Shown: positions 182 through 47,978 of the stretch, piece after piece
Numbering within the stretch: position 1 is the first letter of the stretch
How the letters are laid out: each line of letters begins with the position of its first letter
Origin: an uncultured Neomegalonema sp.
GTDB taxonomy: Bacteria; Pseudomonadota; Alphaproteobacteria; Rhodobacterales; Rhodobacteraceae
Assembly: GCA_937995735.1 (NCBI GenBank)
Contig: CALKIZ010000003.1
Location: 1 to 64,000 of the forward strand
Direction of reading: 5' to 3'
DNA length: 64,000 bases
Notes under the pieces: generated by a model
What the model was told of the DNA's origin: nothing
The model's input: the letters and a program-made list of their open reading frames with translations, nothing else
The model's database searches: none
Made by a program: the position numbers and the translations under genes

Positions 182-913
182 GTGGACTTTGAACGGGCAT
201 TAGAAACTCAGCGGCTCAAACTGCTCCGCCTTGTTGCGGGGCTGGTCGTTTTGGTTGGGGTGTTGTCCCTTGGTCCGATCTCGCGCGGTTTCTCAATCAC
301 GGTCTGCCGCTTTGTTGGGGCGATGTTGTCCCGCGCCGAAACTGCTGCACAGTATCTGGTGATTGCACAGGCCCGCTTGATGGACTCCCGCAGCGGCATG
401 GCTATCGGCCAAAGCCAATTCTCCGAGTCTCTCGCCCGTGCGTTTCCGGCAGAGGAAAAGGATGTCTCGCTGTCTGACTGCCGCGAACGGCTTAAAGCCC
501 TGCTTGCGGTTCTGACGCATTTACCGCGCCATGCCGCGCGCCTGATACGCCGGATCGAAAAGCAAATGCGGGACTCGGCTCGCACATATCCGCTTTCGCC
601 CCACTCGGATGAGTGCCTTTCAGGAGTGCTTGATGGCTTGAGGCTGGTTGGACCCCGCATTGAGCGCCCGCCCGATAAGGGCTTGCTCGTGTCGTCGTTC
701 TTCCACCTCCCCCCGAATTCCGGGCGGGAGGCACAGGCGGTTGGTCGATGGTGCCGTCAAGGGCGTTGCCCGATCGCTATTGAAGCCGATCTTTATCACC
801 ACCACGATCCTGTTTTTCCATCATCCAGATGGAGCTTTACATACTCTGGCAGTGGCCACGCATCATGGTCTATCCCTGTCATTGAGCCGGGATTTGATCC
901 TCGGTACGCATGA
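182..913 (+). CDS. Hypothetical protein with N-terminal membrane segment; 3' half doubtful
   Basis: This is a GTG-started frame of 243 residues just after the transposase end. Residues about 15-50 are hydrophobic, and residues 50-130 look like an ordinary helical protein rich in Arg, Leu and Glu. The second half is rich in Pro, Ser, His and Trp and looks poorly coding. Its last 118 bases also overlap the convergent gene at 796-1491, which ends in a more protein-like way. The true gene may therefore be shorter, frameshifted or decayed. I do not recognise a family. Its position between a transposase and a truncated operon suggests it arrived with a rearrangement, but that is inference. Confidence 0.4.
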   Translation: MDFERALETQRLKLLRLVAGLVVLVGVLSLGPISRGFSITVCRFVGAMLSRAETAAQYLVIAQARLMDSRSGMAIGQSQFSESLARAFPAEEKDVSLSDCRERLKALLAVLTHLPRHAARLIRRIEKQMRDSARTYPLSPHSDECLSGVLDGLRLVGPRIERPPDKGLLVSSFFHLPPNSGREAQAVGRWCRQGRCPIAIEADLYHHHDPVFPSSRWSFTYSGSGHASWSIPVIEPGFDPRYA

Positions 914-28404: not shown

Positions 28405-28647
28405 TCAGCTTTTTGATTCGAGCGCTGCGAGTCGGGTTTTGAGGGCTTCGTTTTCTTCACGCGCTTTTTGTGCCATCGCACGAACAGCGTCGAATTCCTC
28501 GCGGGTGACGAGATCCATATCGGCCAGAAGACGTTCGACACGGCCCCGCACAGCGGTTTCGGCCTCGTCTTTGACGCCCTTTGCCATGCCTGCGGCATTG
28601 GTCATCAATTTCGATATATCGTCGAAGATGCGATTATTGGTCTGCAT
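28405..28647 (-). CDS. ubiK: Ubiquinone biosynthesis accessory factor UbiK (BMFP family)
   Basis: An 80-residue protein with an amphipathic N-terminal helix (RIFDDISKLMTNAAG) and a C-terminal coiled coil (REENEALKTRLAALE), the family layout. It assists UbiJ and the ubiquinone hydroxylase complex. ATG 28647 is chosen; a longer upstream frame shows no coding character. Together with COQ9 at 38 kb it supports a normal ubiquinone pathway. Confidence 0.9.
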   Translation of the reverse strand: MQTNNRIFDDISKLMTNAAGMAKGVKDEAETAVRGRVERLLADMDLVTREEFDAVRAMAQKAREENEALKTRLAALESKS

Positions 28648-28762
28648 GTCTCTATCCTTGTTTGTTATCTTTATGTGGGAGAGGCACGACGCAGCGCAAG
28701 GTACAGCTTGGCGCACCCGCAAAATTATACGTCGAATTATCGGCTTTTATCGTGCTCTTTAC

Positions 28763-28815
28763 TCAGAGCGATTTTGCGATCCGTCCAATTGCGGCTTCGA
28801 TGTTTTCTAATGAAT
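28763..28815 (-). pseudogene. Displaced original 3' end of the aminotransferase gene
   Basis: On the minus strand this segment reads SLENIEAAIGRIAKSL and stops with TGA at 28765-28763. The first 12 residues are identical to the end of the intact aminotransferase (SLENIEAAIGRI), and 37 of 39 bases match 29487-29525. Upstream of this segment homology stops at once. It is best read as the ancestral gene end, cut off by the inserted gene at 28851-29435. Confidence 0.8.
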
Positions 28816-29525
28816 AGTTAGACTACAAACTCAGTCGATTGACTCAAAAACTAATCCACCTGTTTTGGAAATTTCTCCTGCCAACGCCTCATAAGAACTT
28901 GGAAAGAAGACATTGCACTCAAAACTTCTTTAAGAGGAATAACGTCACCACCAATAACATGTAAAGCTTCCACTGGAGTGCTCAGATCATCTTGTGTAAT
29001 AGTAACATTCTCTAGTCTAAGACTGGATAACCCATTGCTCTTCATGAGCGGTAGCAGATCTTCTCGTGTTTCATATTGCTTTTGAAATCGACCTTCCCCA
29101 AGACAATATTCATTTTCATGTGCGTGAAAATCTCTGAGTTCTGAAGACCTTTTGCAACATTTTCTAAATTCCTTCAAAGCTAGCAAAAACTCTTGAGATT
29201 CAGTTTGTTTAATTTCCTTCTGAAGTGCGTTTGCCCAGTTTAAAGTCTGAGCCATTCTAATGACGAACAGGATTTCATGATTGGACACGTCCTCAGTTTC
29301 GATTTCTTTGCTGGTGTCCCCATCAGTTTGTTGAGGTTTTGCCAAGAATTCTGCATGTCGGCAGGCCTGACCGAACCTTTTTATAACATGAAGCAAACAA
29401 ATTTCTATTTTAGCCTCATTTTCTTGCGCAGTCATCGATCGCTCCCATGATACGAAATCATGATTGTCTTGACCCCAATAGTTGTCCGATCCGTCCAATC
29501 GCGGCTTCGATGTTTTCTAGTGAAT
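28777..29525. mobile_element. Small single-gene insertion bounded by 39-bp direct repeats
   Basis: 28777-28815 and 29487-29525 match at 37 of 39 bases in the same orientation, 710 bp apart. The repeats are the last coding codons of the aminotransferase. The DNA between is A+T-rich and holds one gene. The right copy is followed in frame by nine new residues and a stop, so the host gene stays open. This is the signature of integration into a gene 3' end, or of acquisition of a short island with a homologous end. No integrase is present. Confidence 0.7.
28851..29435 (-). CDS. Hypothetical helical protein with HEPN-like R-x4-H motif
   Basis: This 194-residue, mostly helical protein is encoded in A+T-rich DNA inside the direct-repeat insertion. 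Long amphipathic helices flank RDFHAHENEYCLGEGRF (mid-protein), where R-DFHA-H fits the Rx4-6H motif of HEPN RNases and toxins. The helix before it (CCKRSSELR) is also of that type. HEPN proteins are common in toxin and phage-defence loci, but I see no antitoxin or nucleotidyltransferase partner. ATG 29435 (MTAQEN) is chosen over a longer frame overlapping the aminotransferase. The HEPN assignment is tentative. Confidence 0.6.
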   Translation of the reverse strand: MTAQENEAKIEICLLHVIKRFGQACRHAEFLAKPQQTDGDTSKEIETEDVSNHEILFVIRMAQTLNWANALQKEIKQTESQEFLLALKEFRKCCKRSSELRDFHAHENEYCLGEGRFQKQYETREDLLPLMKSNGLSSLRLENVTITQDDLSTPVEALHVIGGDVIPLKEVLSAMSSFQVLMRRWQEKFPKQVD

Positions 29526-30633
29526 TGGCATAGCTAAACCGCAAAAACCCGTCGCCATTCACGCCGAAGCTGGTTCCGGCAATCGTTGCGACGCCTGCCT
29601 CTTCCAGAAGGCGGGTTTGCATTGTCTTTGCGTCAATGCCTGTGCCTTCGATATTCGGGAAGGTATAGAATGCGCCGGCAGCATCGGCACAGCGAAAACC
29701 GGGCAGGTCATTGAGCATCTTCACAATGGCAACACGGCGCTCGTCAAAGGCTTTCATCATTGTGTCGACGGCATCTTGCGGGCCTTCTAATGCAGCGATA
29801 CCGGCATATTGCGTGGCGGCATTGACGCAGGAATGAGCGTTTACACAGAACCGTTCGGCCAAATCGATCAGCTTATCGGGCCAAACCGCATAGCCGAGCC
29901 GCCAGCCGGTCATTGCATAGGTCTTTGACCAGCCGTCCAAAACAATCAGGCGGTCCCGAATTTCCGGATAGGCAAGAAACGAGACATGCTCACGCCCGCC
30001 ATAGAGCATCCGGCTGTAAATCTCATCCGACATGATCGCGACATCGGGCCAATCGGCTAATCCTGAAATCAGCTTTTCAACTTCAGCCTTCGGGGTGACA
30101 CCGCCGGTCGGGTTGCCGGGAGAGTTCACAATGATGAGCCGTGTCTTTGTCGTAATTTGATTGAGGACTTCATCGGCGCTGAAGCCAAAATCACGATTTT
30201 CATGCAATTTCATCGGGACCGGGGTTGCCCCGGAATACTCGATCATCGAGCGATAGATTGGAAAACCGGGATCGGGATAGATGATCTCTGTTCCCAGCGC
30301 GCCGAACATCAGGATCGAGAAGAACATGGTGGGCTTTCCGCCCGGCATGATCGTGATGTTCTCAGGAGACACCTCTACTCCGCGCCGTTTTGCAATATCG
30401 GCGCATACGGCTTCGCGCAGGGGCAGAATGCCTTTCGCGGGAGTGTAGCCATGATGTCCGTCGCGCAGCGCTTTGATCCCCGCTTCAACAATATGATCAG
30501 GCGTCGGAAAATCAGGCTGACCGATGCCAAGGTTGATAATGTCTTTGCCTTCCCGCTGTAATTCGGCAGCGCGGGCAAGAACGGAAAAGGCACTCTCTGT
30601 ACCAAGACGCGAGACGGCATCGGTCGGGATCAT
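29458..30633 (-). CDS. PLP-dependent class I/II aminotransferase with replaced C-terminus
   Basis: A 391-residue fold-type I aminotransferase. GYTPAKGILPLREA (63-76), NSPGNPTGGV (170-179), SDEIYSRMLYGG and the Schiff-base Lys237 in DGWSKTYAMTGWRLGY are all present, followed by FLRFSYANS. It is likely an aspartate/alanine/branched-chain-type enzyme; the substrate cannot be fixed. The last nine residues (GQLLGSRQS) differ from the ancestral end (AKSL), which survives 0.7 kb downstream after an insertion. The core is unaffected, so the enzyme is probably active. Confidence 0.92.
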   Translation of the reverse strand: MIPTDAVSRLGTESAFSVLARAAELQREGKDIINLGIGQPDFPTPDHIVEAGIKALRDGHHGYTPAKGILPLREAVCADIAKRRGVEVSPENITIMPGGKPTMFFSILMFGALGTEIIYPDPGFPIYRSMIEYSGATPVPMKLHENRDFGFSADEVLNQITTKTRLIIVNSPGNPTGGVTPKAEVEKLISGLADWPDVAIMSDEIYSRMLYGGREHVSFLAYPEIRDRLIVLDGWSKTYAMTGWRLGYAVWPDKLIDLAERFCVNAHSCVNAATQYAGIAALEGPQDAVDTMMKAFDERRVAIVKMLNDLPGFRCADAAGAFYTFPNIEGTGIDAKTMQTRLLEEAGVATIAGTSFGVNGDGFLRFSYANSLENIEAAIGRIGQLLGSRQS

Positions 30634-46121: not shown

Positions 46122-47978
46122 TTACGGTCTTGTTGCGATAGCAGCGGCGGAAACGACACTGTTAAGAGTTGGAACCAACTGCGTAACGAAGCGACTCCAG
46201 TTCGTAATTGCGCGCGGCATGACCAGAACATAATCATCCGGGCGCATCTGAAACATGGTCATTGCTGCCGTATTTGCCAGATTTCGACCGTCAAAATGGA
46301 AAATAAAAGATTCAACACTTCCGGCGACGCTGGATTTTACGCGAACAACATAGACGCGAGACGGATCGCCGGTAATCGGTGCAATGCCATTCCCGCCGAA
46401 AATTGCTTCAGCAAGCGTAAAGTGACGGTCAAATGGCAAATTGATTGTCTGCTGACTGCCGACTTCACCTGCAAGAAAGATATGGTCTTGCTCTTCGACG
46501 CCGAGATCAATGCGTGCGCGCGCCAGATCGCGACCGGCATTTTGTTCGTTTAAGTCGGCTGAACGTTGGGCTAATTCTGCTGCGCGGTCACTGCGTGTGC
46601 CATCAAGTTCTGCTAAAGCAAGCTGACGCGCAGCGCGTTGTTCACCGGCCTCTGCTAAAACAAGTTGTCGTGCAGCGCGTTGTTCACCTGCCTCTGCTAA
46701 AGCAAGTTGTCGTGCAGCACGTTGTCCGCCAGCCTCCTCTAGAGACAATTGCCGTGCGGCCCTCGCTTCTGCCGCAGCTGCCCGCGCTTCGGCATCGCGC
46801 GCTCTGGCTTCGGCTGCGTCTAAACGGGCTTCTTCACGGTCACGACGGGCTGCATCGAGTTCAGCGCGGGCATCCGCTTTTTCTGCAATTTGCACATTAA
46901 GGCGGGCAATTTCAAGTTGTTGCTCGGTAAAGAGCGCATTCTGGCGAGCAATTTCAGCCGCTTCAGCGGCACGTTGATCTTGCAAATCAGCCCTGCGTTC
47001 TTCTGCTTCAAAGCGCTCTTGCGCGCGTTGAGCTTCCTCTCGCTCAAATTCTGCCCTTCGCAATGCAAGGACATCACTGGAAACAGCGGCGGTCGCATAA
47101 GTGTTTACAAGTTCATCAAAAATCTGAATCTCATCTTCATCACGGAGAAAAACGTCATAACCATAAGTATGGCGAAGGATATCATGTCCCGGAATGGAAT
47201 AGTTCTGGCCGTCGCGACGAAGAACAACAATCTGCCTCCGTGCATCTGTGTCAATACCGCTGGAATTTTGGAGATAGACATCTCGTAATGTAATCGGTGT
47301 GCTGGTGATTGGCACAAATGAGGTAGGTTGACCCGGCGAAGAAAGCAGAACTTTTTGACTTTCGAAGCCCGTTACTGTCGCTGATGCATTAGAAGAGAGT
47401 CTGGCATCTCTGAAGCGGTCGGCGATTATTTGTCTCGCTCCAGAAACAGTTTGGCCGAGAACGTTCACTTCACCCACATCTGTCAAAAAGATATTGCCAG
47501 CGTAATCAACTGTTGTATCTCGTTGAAACGCTCTTGATGCGCCTGTCTCGGTGACAGCTTCAACGGTAACAGTGAAGATGTCACCTACGCCGATACGATA
47601 TGGCCGTGCCGGACTAGGGGGCGGGTTGCGCAAATCATCCGTGCCAGTGAAGGTGCTTACGTTTTCAGACACCTGCGCAATGAGAAAAGAACCATCCGAT
47701 TCGCCTAGTGTTGAGGCGCGTATGATTGGCGCATTCCCGACAAAGGCGGAGCTAAGTTGGAGATTTTTCGGCGTTTCGCGCGGGGTATATTTCCAAAGTT
47801 TGTTCGCTTCTAACGCTGAAGAAGGTGTTAGATCGACGACTTTGAAATTGTATGAATCGTTTTTGAAATCAACGAGTAACGGCGAAGACGGAACAAACTG
47901 CGTTGGATAAATGGCCTGACAACCGGTAACAGCAATAAGCAGCGCTGCAGGTACGAGGGCCGATTTCAAAAAGCTCAT
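46122..47978 (-). CDS. Wza-like polysaccharide export lipoprotein with coiled-coil insert
   Basis: A 618-residue outer-membrane lipoprotein: signal peptide with lipobox VTGC (Cys20), poly-export domain about 125-215 (PYRIGVGDIFTVTVEAV), and a first SLBB domain to about 290. Residues about 300-495 are a highly charged Ala/Glu/Arg coiled coil, including repeats of EAGEQRAARQLxLA. A second SLBB (FLAGEVGSQQTINLP and following) ends the protein. Wza homologues are about 380 residues, so the coiled coil is an insertion between SLBB domains. ATG 47978 gives the signal peptide. It is likely co-transcribed with the GDP-mannose gene, and a CtrA-type box lies 42 bp upstream. Confidence 0.88.
   Translation of the reverse strand: MSFLKSALVPAALLIAVTGCQAIYPTQFVPSSPLLVDFKNDSYNFKVVDLTPSSALEANKLWKYTPRETPKNLQLSSAFVGNAPIIRASTLGESDGSFLIAQVSENVSTFTGTDDLRNPPPSPARPYRIGVGDIFTVTVEAVTETGASRAFQRDTTVDYAGNIFLTDVGEVNVLGQTVSGARQIIADRFRDARLSSNASATVTGFESQKVLLSSPGQPTSFVPITSTPITLRDVYLQNSSGIDTDARRQIVVLRRDGQNYSIPGHDILRHTYGYDVFLRDEDEIQIFDELVNTYATAAVSSDVLALRRAEFEREEAQRAQERFEAEERRADLQDQRAAEAAEIARQNALFTEQQLEIARLNVQIAEKADARAELDAARRDREEARLDAAEARARDAEARAAAAEARAARQLSLEEAGGQRAARQLALAEAGEQRAARQLVLAEAGEQRAARQLALAELDGTRSDRAAELAQRSADLNEQNAGRDLARARIDLGVEEQDHIFLAGEVGSQQTINLPFDRHFTLAEAIFGGNGIAPITGDPSRVYVVRVKSSVAGSVESFIFHFDGRNLANTAAMTMFQMRPDDYVLVMPRAITNWSRFVTQLVPTLNSVVSAAAIATRP
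46612..46737 (-). repeat. 42-bp tandem repeat, three copies, in the coiled-coil region
   Basis: Units start at 46612, 46654 and 46696, with a diverged fourth from 46738. Each encodes 14 residues of the type EAGEQRAARQLALA. Copies differ by only a few bases, so copy number may vary by slippage or recombination without breaking the frame. Confidence 0.85.

Follow-up and report, generated by a model that had tools for sequence, protein, structure and literature searches.

Restriction–modification genes are said to have been inserted with a long target duplication in the cases reported by Nobusato in 2000 and by Furuta in 2010. In the passages cited for this class of insertion, an empty site is found together with a duplication of tens to about a hundred bases (PMC3874152, PMC2749054, PMC1643837, PMC3031569, PMC4978471). 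In Escherichia coli, clones were tested by PCR after conjugation of a small plasmid that cannot replicate and bears a segment of the lacZ end: 56 of 60 gave the product that marks duplication of the gene end. This outcome was ascribed to a single crossover (14 were sequenced), and true homology-facilitated illegitimate recombination (HFIR; homologous recombination at one end with illegitimate joining at the other) was rare in this assay, at 3 in 10^10, according to the cited part of that report (PMC3240628). HFIR is also the process to which displaced orphan immunity genes and Rhs 3′ ends at Vibrio T6SS loci were attributed in the section cited (PMC5361080). For the H47 genomic island of E. 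coli, which measures 12.6 kb, the cited part describes an experimental demonstration of both excision and integration (PMC3191183), and among small variable segments 10–18% were placed between direct repeats, with illegitimate recombination favoured (PMC2884548, cited passage).

The locus described here lies in the window, i.e. the whole stretch of 64,000 nucleotides that was analysed, where the end of an aminotransferase gene is duplicated on the two sides of an insert carrying a single orphan gene, X. As far as the cited parts of these reports go, it resembles the lacZ-end assay in that inserted DNA is bracketed by a duplicated gene end, homology presumably being confined to that one end, and differs in being a natural event, in the length of the duplication (39 bp here, 109–950 bp in the assay) and in that the incoming tail appears to supply the working gene end (PMC3240628). 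With the Vibrio T6SS loci it would share an incoming allele anchored by upstream homology and a resident 3′ part displaced downstream, whereas the anchor here is a housekeeping gene and the displaced part amounts to about 17 codons plus the stop (PMC5361080). The restriction–modification insertions are alike in their empty site and long direct duplication around a foreign gene, but X is no recognisable restriction–modification gene and a homologous incoming tail is likely in this case. Imperfect direct repeats and the absence of an own recombinase recall H47, from which our locus differs in its size of 0.7 kb and in being known from sequence alone (PMC3191183); it is also flanked by direct repeats like the small variable segments, whereas 66–94% of the repeats in those were shorter than 30 bp (PMC2884548).

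The aminotransferase locus and the same slot in relatives

The locus comprises the following features:

28405..28647, minus strand: BMFP-family gene (Pfam PF04380, E 2.5e-29), the native downstream neighbour and right flank of the empty site, which adjoins the aminotransferase gene in G012 and G007
28763..28776, minus strand: the original end of the gene, now displaced (AKSL and TGA here, GKLL in G012) and running directly into native downstream DNA
28777..28815, minus strand: displaced copy of the 39-bp repeat (from repeat comparison and core search)
28816..28850, minus strand: non-coding right end of the insert, with ...TCTAACT abutting the repeat (from reading the sequence)
28851..29435, minus strand: ORF of orphan gene X, 194 aa from ATG, belonging to no family; it begins 22 bp after the aminotransferase stop, with GGGAG before the ATG
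29458..29486, minus strand: new 3′ end, apparently brought by the insert, which completes GQLLGSRQS and the stop and resembles the ends GKLLG and GTLLG of close relatives
29487..29525, minus strand: copy of the 39-bp repeat on the gene side, which remains part of the coding sequence, within NSLENIEAAIGRI (from repeat comparison)
29458..30633, minus strand: ORF of the aminotransferase gene, class I/II, aspartate aminotransferase-like (Pfam PF00155, Aminotran_1_2, E 4e-60), the host gene with a rebuilt 3′ end

The two copies of the direct repeat are identical at 37 of 39 positions, with a longest uninterrupted match of 19 bases, whereas five shuffled versions of a 10-kb part of the window gave no better 39-mer match than 20–21 of 39. 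The initial annotation had taken this repeat for the end of the aminotransferase coding sequence, and re-measurement returned the same coordinates, 710 bp apart. Its reading of an insertion at a gene 3′ end with that end rebuilt is likewise borne out by the direct repeats and the regenerated end: on the minus strand the gene now terminates in ...IGRI-GQLLGSRQS, the nine residues past the repeat being new, as had been claimed, and the displaced copy reads ...IGRI-AKSL-TGA and continues unbroken into the leader of the BMFP gene, through DNA that is native in G012, the closest genome in the comparison. The annotation had also regarded AKSL and its TGA as the original end of the gene; a displaced end is indeed present there, but AKSL is probably a decayed form of it, since the G012 orthologue, which shares 97% amino-acid identity, ends in GKLL.

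In G012 the site is empty, the aminotransferase gene ending in ...GRIGKLL-stop and being followed by the BMFP gene with nothing between, and the DNA identity to G012 is about 92% on both flanks of the insert, over kilobases. The site of G007 is likewise empty, and relatives with an uninterrupted end and no inserted gene had in fact been predicted. In G001 the aminotransferase is followed by other genes over about 2.7 kb, including what we take, from reading the sequence and not from a family search, to be a YoeB/YefM-like pair. In G011, whose contig ends before any BMFP gene, the slot holds an ORF that we read in the same way as AIPR-like. There is no repeat and no aminotransferase tail remnant in either genome. 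Because relatives range from an empty site (G012, G007) to other genes (G001, G011), the slot behind the aminotransferase is variable in this clade. A search of the 3.0–8.0 kb of downstream DNA at 19 loci of relatives gave no tail remnant scoring higher than shuffles (best scores 9–13, shuffles 9–13), and among the loci compared, drawn from one genome per species and from species other than that of the window, the duplication is seen in this genome only. Other cargo downstream of the aminotransferase, without tail duplication, is present at loci L115 (G001) and L127 (G011).

The insert (28816-29486) is of foreign composition, being AT-rich with 39.8% GC against 53% for the window. X is its sole ORF of note and lies on the same strand as the aminotransferase, with a GC content by codon position (0.53/0.33/0.33) that fits coding DNA; an alternative TTG start within the repeat would extend it to 215 aa, and it would presumably be expressed from the aminotransferase operon. 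No match to X was obtained in Pfam, PADLOC or PHROGs, and a single NCBIfam match (E 0.076) is at chance level and far under the model cut-off. Relatives of X were found neither in genome or viral contigs by peptide-pattern scans, whose reach is close relatives only, nor in plasmids and phages by tblastn (E 0.01), nor in 60 related genomes; at E 0.001 there was no match outside its own genome in 393 family, 384 class and 397 phylum genomes (overlapping sets), and one family-level match at E 0.018 is taken as chance. PDB sequences gave no match either (best E 0.34), and the structure model, with a mean pLDDT of 38.8, is unusable. X contains an RDFHAH motif that may resemble an HEPN motif, and we make no claim of an HEPN assignment. 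The insert as a whole had no match at E 0.05 in the relatives' loci (2.68 Mb) or the window flanks, and of the three inverted pairs found (arms of at least 14 bases) none brackets it in the manner of IS or MITE terminal inverted repeats. Each of the two inner sides of the repeat carries the 7-mer AACTATT, perhaps as an arm site, perhaps by chance; by eye, no extended homology beyond it was seen at the other junction of the insert.

Displaced gene tails elsewhere in the genome

In order to survey such tails, we sought a copy of the last 78 bases of ORFs of at least 120 aa within 4 kb downstream, in 1,839,404 of the 3,690,917 genome bases, a non-random half consisting of the window contig, the integrase contigs and then contigs by number and size. 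A downstream copy scoring at least 23 was found for 7 of 1499 ORF tails, against a maximum score of 16 in the reversed-sequence control. Displaced single-gene tails account for four of the seven, namely the aminotransferase (the starting case), pyrB, ubiG and, as a weaker case, uvrB. These names, and that of pyrC, are our own assignments from reading the sequences. The tail copy at C3:140604 was dropped as an ORF in intergenic palindromic repeats, and those at C49:3449 and C3:194590 as tandem paralogues. We found no description of displaced housekeeping-gene tails as a class in the open-licence literature searched.

The pyrB gene lies at G000:C12:111643-112608, in a pyrB–pyrC slot spanning G000:C12:111643-114503 (locus L233), where it is followed in order by ParDE1, a joint of a pyrC head of about 30 bp with a 105-bp copy of the pyrB tail, ParDE2 and pyrC, both ParD/ParE pairs being identified by Pfam. 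The pyrB tails are identical at 76 of 78 bases and the pairs diverge (77% identity for ParD, 51% for ParE), which gives the two units the appearance of alleles and not of a simple tandem copy. This unequal divergence of tails and cargo makes a plain tandem duplication less likely; one whose cargo was exchanged later is the alternative reading. The joint of pyrC head and pyrB tail is as expected for the product of a closed fragment of pyrB tail, toxin–antitoxin pair and pyrC head after a single crossover. Different sequence, without a ParD or ParE match, lies between pyrB and pyrC in G012 and G007.

A like layout is seen at ubiG (locus L212, G000:C51:16928-19761), where a displaced 28-bp copy of the tail (27/28) lies 2046 bp downstream and adjoins the native neighbour, with two orphan ORFs inside the insertion. 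This copy reads VNYALLAEKPN-stop, compared with VNYALVAEKPR-stop in G011, and the gene itself now ends in AEKAGA, so that the new end is AGA and the displaced end, PN, stands beside native DNA. In G011 and G001 the next gene directly adjoins ubiG, and G012 shares part of the insertion, including the displaced tail; in the G007 ubiG stretch the neighbour gene was not seen. The uvrB gene has a similar displaced tail, common to G012, to which we give less weight because the copy runs on into repeated intergenic DNA.

The dispersed orphan family orfB, present in both the ubiG and uvrB inserts, was considered as the mover and rejected, 21 of the 25 copies inspected being without flanking direct repeats, with several copies so near contig ends that just one side was testable. 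A dispersed family of proteins of about 170 aa without Pfam match is seen at window 188-688 and at loci L212 and L299-L317; its copies at E <1e-10 number 12 in its own genome, 10 in G012 and 4 in G011, with weak or no matches in the other 38 of the 41 genomes searched. Among gene heads, 4 of 1474 scored at least 24, two being self-match artefacts and one a true copy (C35:8675); the head copy on C24 we take to be a lipoyl-domain paralogue. At G000:C35:8625-8863 (L196), a second copy of the first 51 or so bases of a gene (46/51) lies 188 bp upstream, a head duplication with palindromic intergenic repeats between the copies. Dense clusters of palindromic intergenic repeats occur at G000:C3:140500-142700 (TCATACCCCGCGCAGGCGGGGTATCC type) and G000:C80:15830-16520, and the cluster behind uvrB contains the uvrB tail copy.

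Proposed integration at the gene tail and competing explanations

Because the same layout recurs at unrelated genes, we lean towards general recombination with a relative's DNA, and the reading as a special element is weakened. In our judgement it is moderately probable that a gene tail with its cargo was integrated by a single crossover or by homology-facilitated integration, the resident tail being displaced. A DNA fragment of a closely related strain, bearing the aminotransferase 3′ end and X, would have entered the cell and joined the chromosome via homology at the gene tail alone, either by circularising and integrating through a single crossover, or by homologous recombination at the tail and illegitimate joining at the other end (HFIR). 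The resident tail would thereby be displaced downstream, giving the order of gene with incoming tail, X, resident tail and BMFP gene; the donor, the order of the steps and the recombination enzymes of this integration are what we infer. Selection may explain why such events are located at gene ends, since at such a position the host gene keeps a working end. Against this model, the longest match of 19 bases is short for homologous recombination, although the overlap with the donor could differ; in E. coli a threshold near 30 bp is quoted in the cited passage (PMC2884548). The position of the duplication at a gene end, which is attachment-site-like, also counts against a single crossover or HFIR, as do the right end of the insert, which, unlike pyrB, bears no vestige of the native downstream gene, the rarity of true HFIR in the lacZ-end assay, and the lack of any donor with aminotransferase tail and X in the genomes, contigs, plasmids and phages searched.

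The two tails themselves carry some trace of their origin. AAC and GGA are common to the two repeat copies, at codons where G012, G011, G007 and G001 have AAT and a third base C, and since these two bases are absent from the four closest relatives, the duplicated core would seem to come from the host's own or a very near lineage. On the other side, AAC or a third base A is likewise present in some of the more distant members of the genus, and gene conversion may have evened out the repeat copies. Past the core the two ends diverge, the new end GQLLG being the one that resembles those of relatives. Against 51 orthologue ends, GQLL scores 3.75 bits and AKSL 1.76, compared with 7.5–8.2 for the relatives' own ends, which are part of the profile; about 2% of random tails score as high as GQLL. 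An aminotransferase-like new end that derives from the incoming tail is thus a suggestive, not a decisive, interpretation. No donor tract is visible upstream of the repeat in the identity to G012 along the gene (50–59 of 60 per step).

A non-autonomous or internally deleted integrative element, for which the 39-bp repeats would be attL and attR and the tyrosine recombinase would be encoded elsewhere, accounts for the restored gene 3′ end and for the imperfection of the direct repeats, and the 7-mer could be its arm site. The own genome has eight Phage_integrase matches, two of which we take to be XerC/XerD, that could supply the enzyme in trans. We nevertheless consider this explanation, which includes the recombinase-type island of the initial annotation, unlikely. 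There is no recombinase in the insert, where X, without Pfam match, is the only ORF of note, and no third copy of the core: it is found twice in its own genome, as the two copies described, and once in G012, at the empty site, and, with up to 3 mismatches allowed, is absent from the remaining 12 genomes of the genus and, as an exact pattern, from viral contigs. Other genes at the same 39-bp site elsewhere, which had been proposed as a check, did not appear in the 19 loci, none of which has a tail remnant above shuffles. Across 99 aminotransferase loci, of which 93 extend 1.5 kb or more downstream and at least two are the same contig, ORFs of at least 80 aa were searched with an HMM built from seven own-genome integrase ORFs, all seven seeds being recovered by construction, and no integrase was found tied to the aminotransferase end. 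The one integrase-like ORF among these loci (in L034), presumably a neighbour of tRNA-Leu, is not linked to the gene tail. The cores at pyrB and ubiG, moreover, look unrelated by eye, although mobilisation of a recombinase-less island in trans does have a precedent in the cited part of the H47 report (PMC3191183).

Insertion with a long target duplication of the Nobusato and Kobayashi type, in which a transposition-like process duplicates the target around a selfish gene, fits the empty site, the long direct duplication and the low GC content. It appears quite improbable here: the class was described for restriction–modification genes, and X has no match to any family, be it of restriction, defence or another kind; the new end of the host gene looks like that of an aminotransferase, and a simpler account is available for the pyrB joint. 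Recombination between the repeats would also yield a clean empty site if the arrangement were ancestral and X had been deleted in G012 and G007; this requires several independent losses, and, with X in no other genome searched and AT-rich, and with the displaced tail altered relative to the GKLL of G012, we regard it as very improbable. We give equally little credence to an assembly error in which haplotypes of two strains were joined: the sequence is a draft of 113 contigs, but unique insert sequence abuts the repeat at each junction, which reads should span, and both flanks align to G012 at the identity given above over kilobases.

Under integration of gene tail with cargo, the case illustrates a way of placing an additional gene behind a housekeeping gene, with the latter left intact and no integrase in the added DNA. 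A broader and more doubtful extension, which we put forward tentatively, is that the housekeeping 3′ ends of this clade are recombinase-free docking sites for fragments of gene tail and cargo. If so, cargo such as toxin–antitoxin pairs and orphans would be added behind a gene through recombination at its tail, with the end rebuilt and the displaced tails remaining as scars, and could accumulate without an integrase, much as in an integron minus the enzyme. Such scars can be counted in any genome, and therefore the share of cargo gained by single-crossover or illegitimate integration is testable.

The genome also has a CRISPR array at G000:C19:12663-18408 (L180), near a contig end, with a 36-bp repeat in 18 exact copies and spacers of 29–30 bp, beside a 1053-aa ORF that we take to be Cas9; none of the spacers flanked by exact repeats has a 14-mer in common with window 28701-29600. 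Within the window, an imperfect 42-bp tandem repeat of about five units occupies positions 46567-46776.
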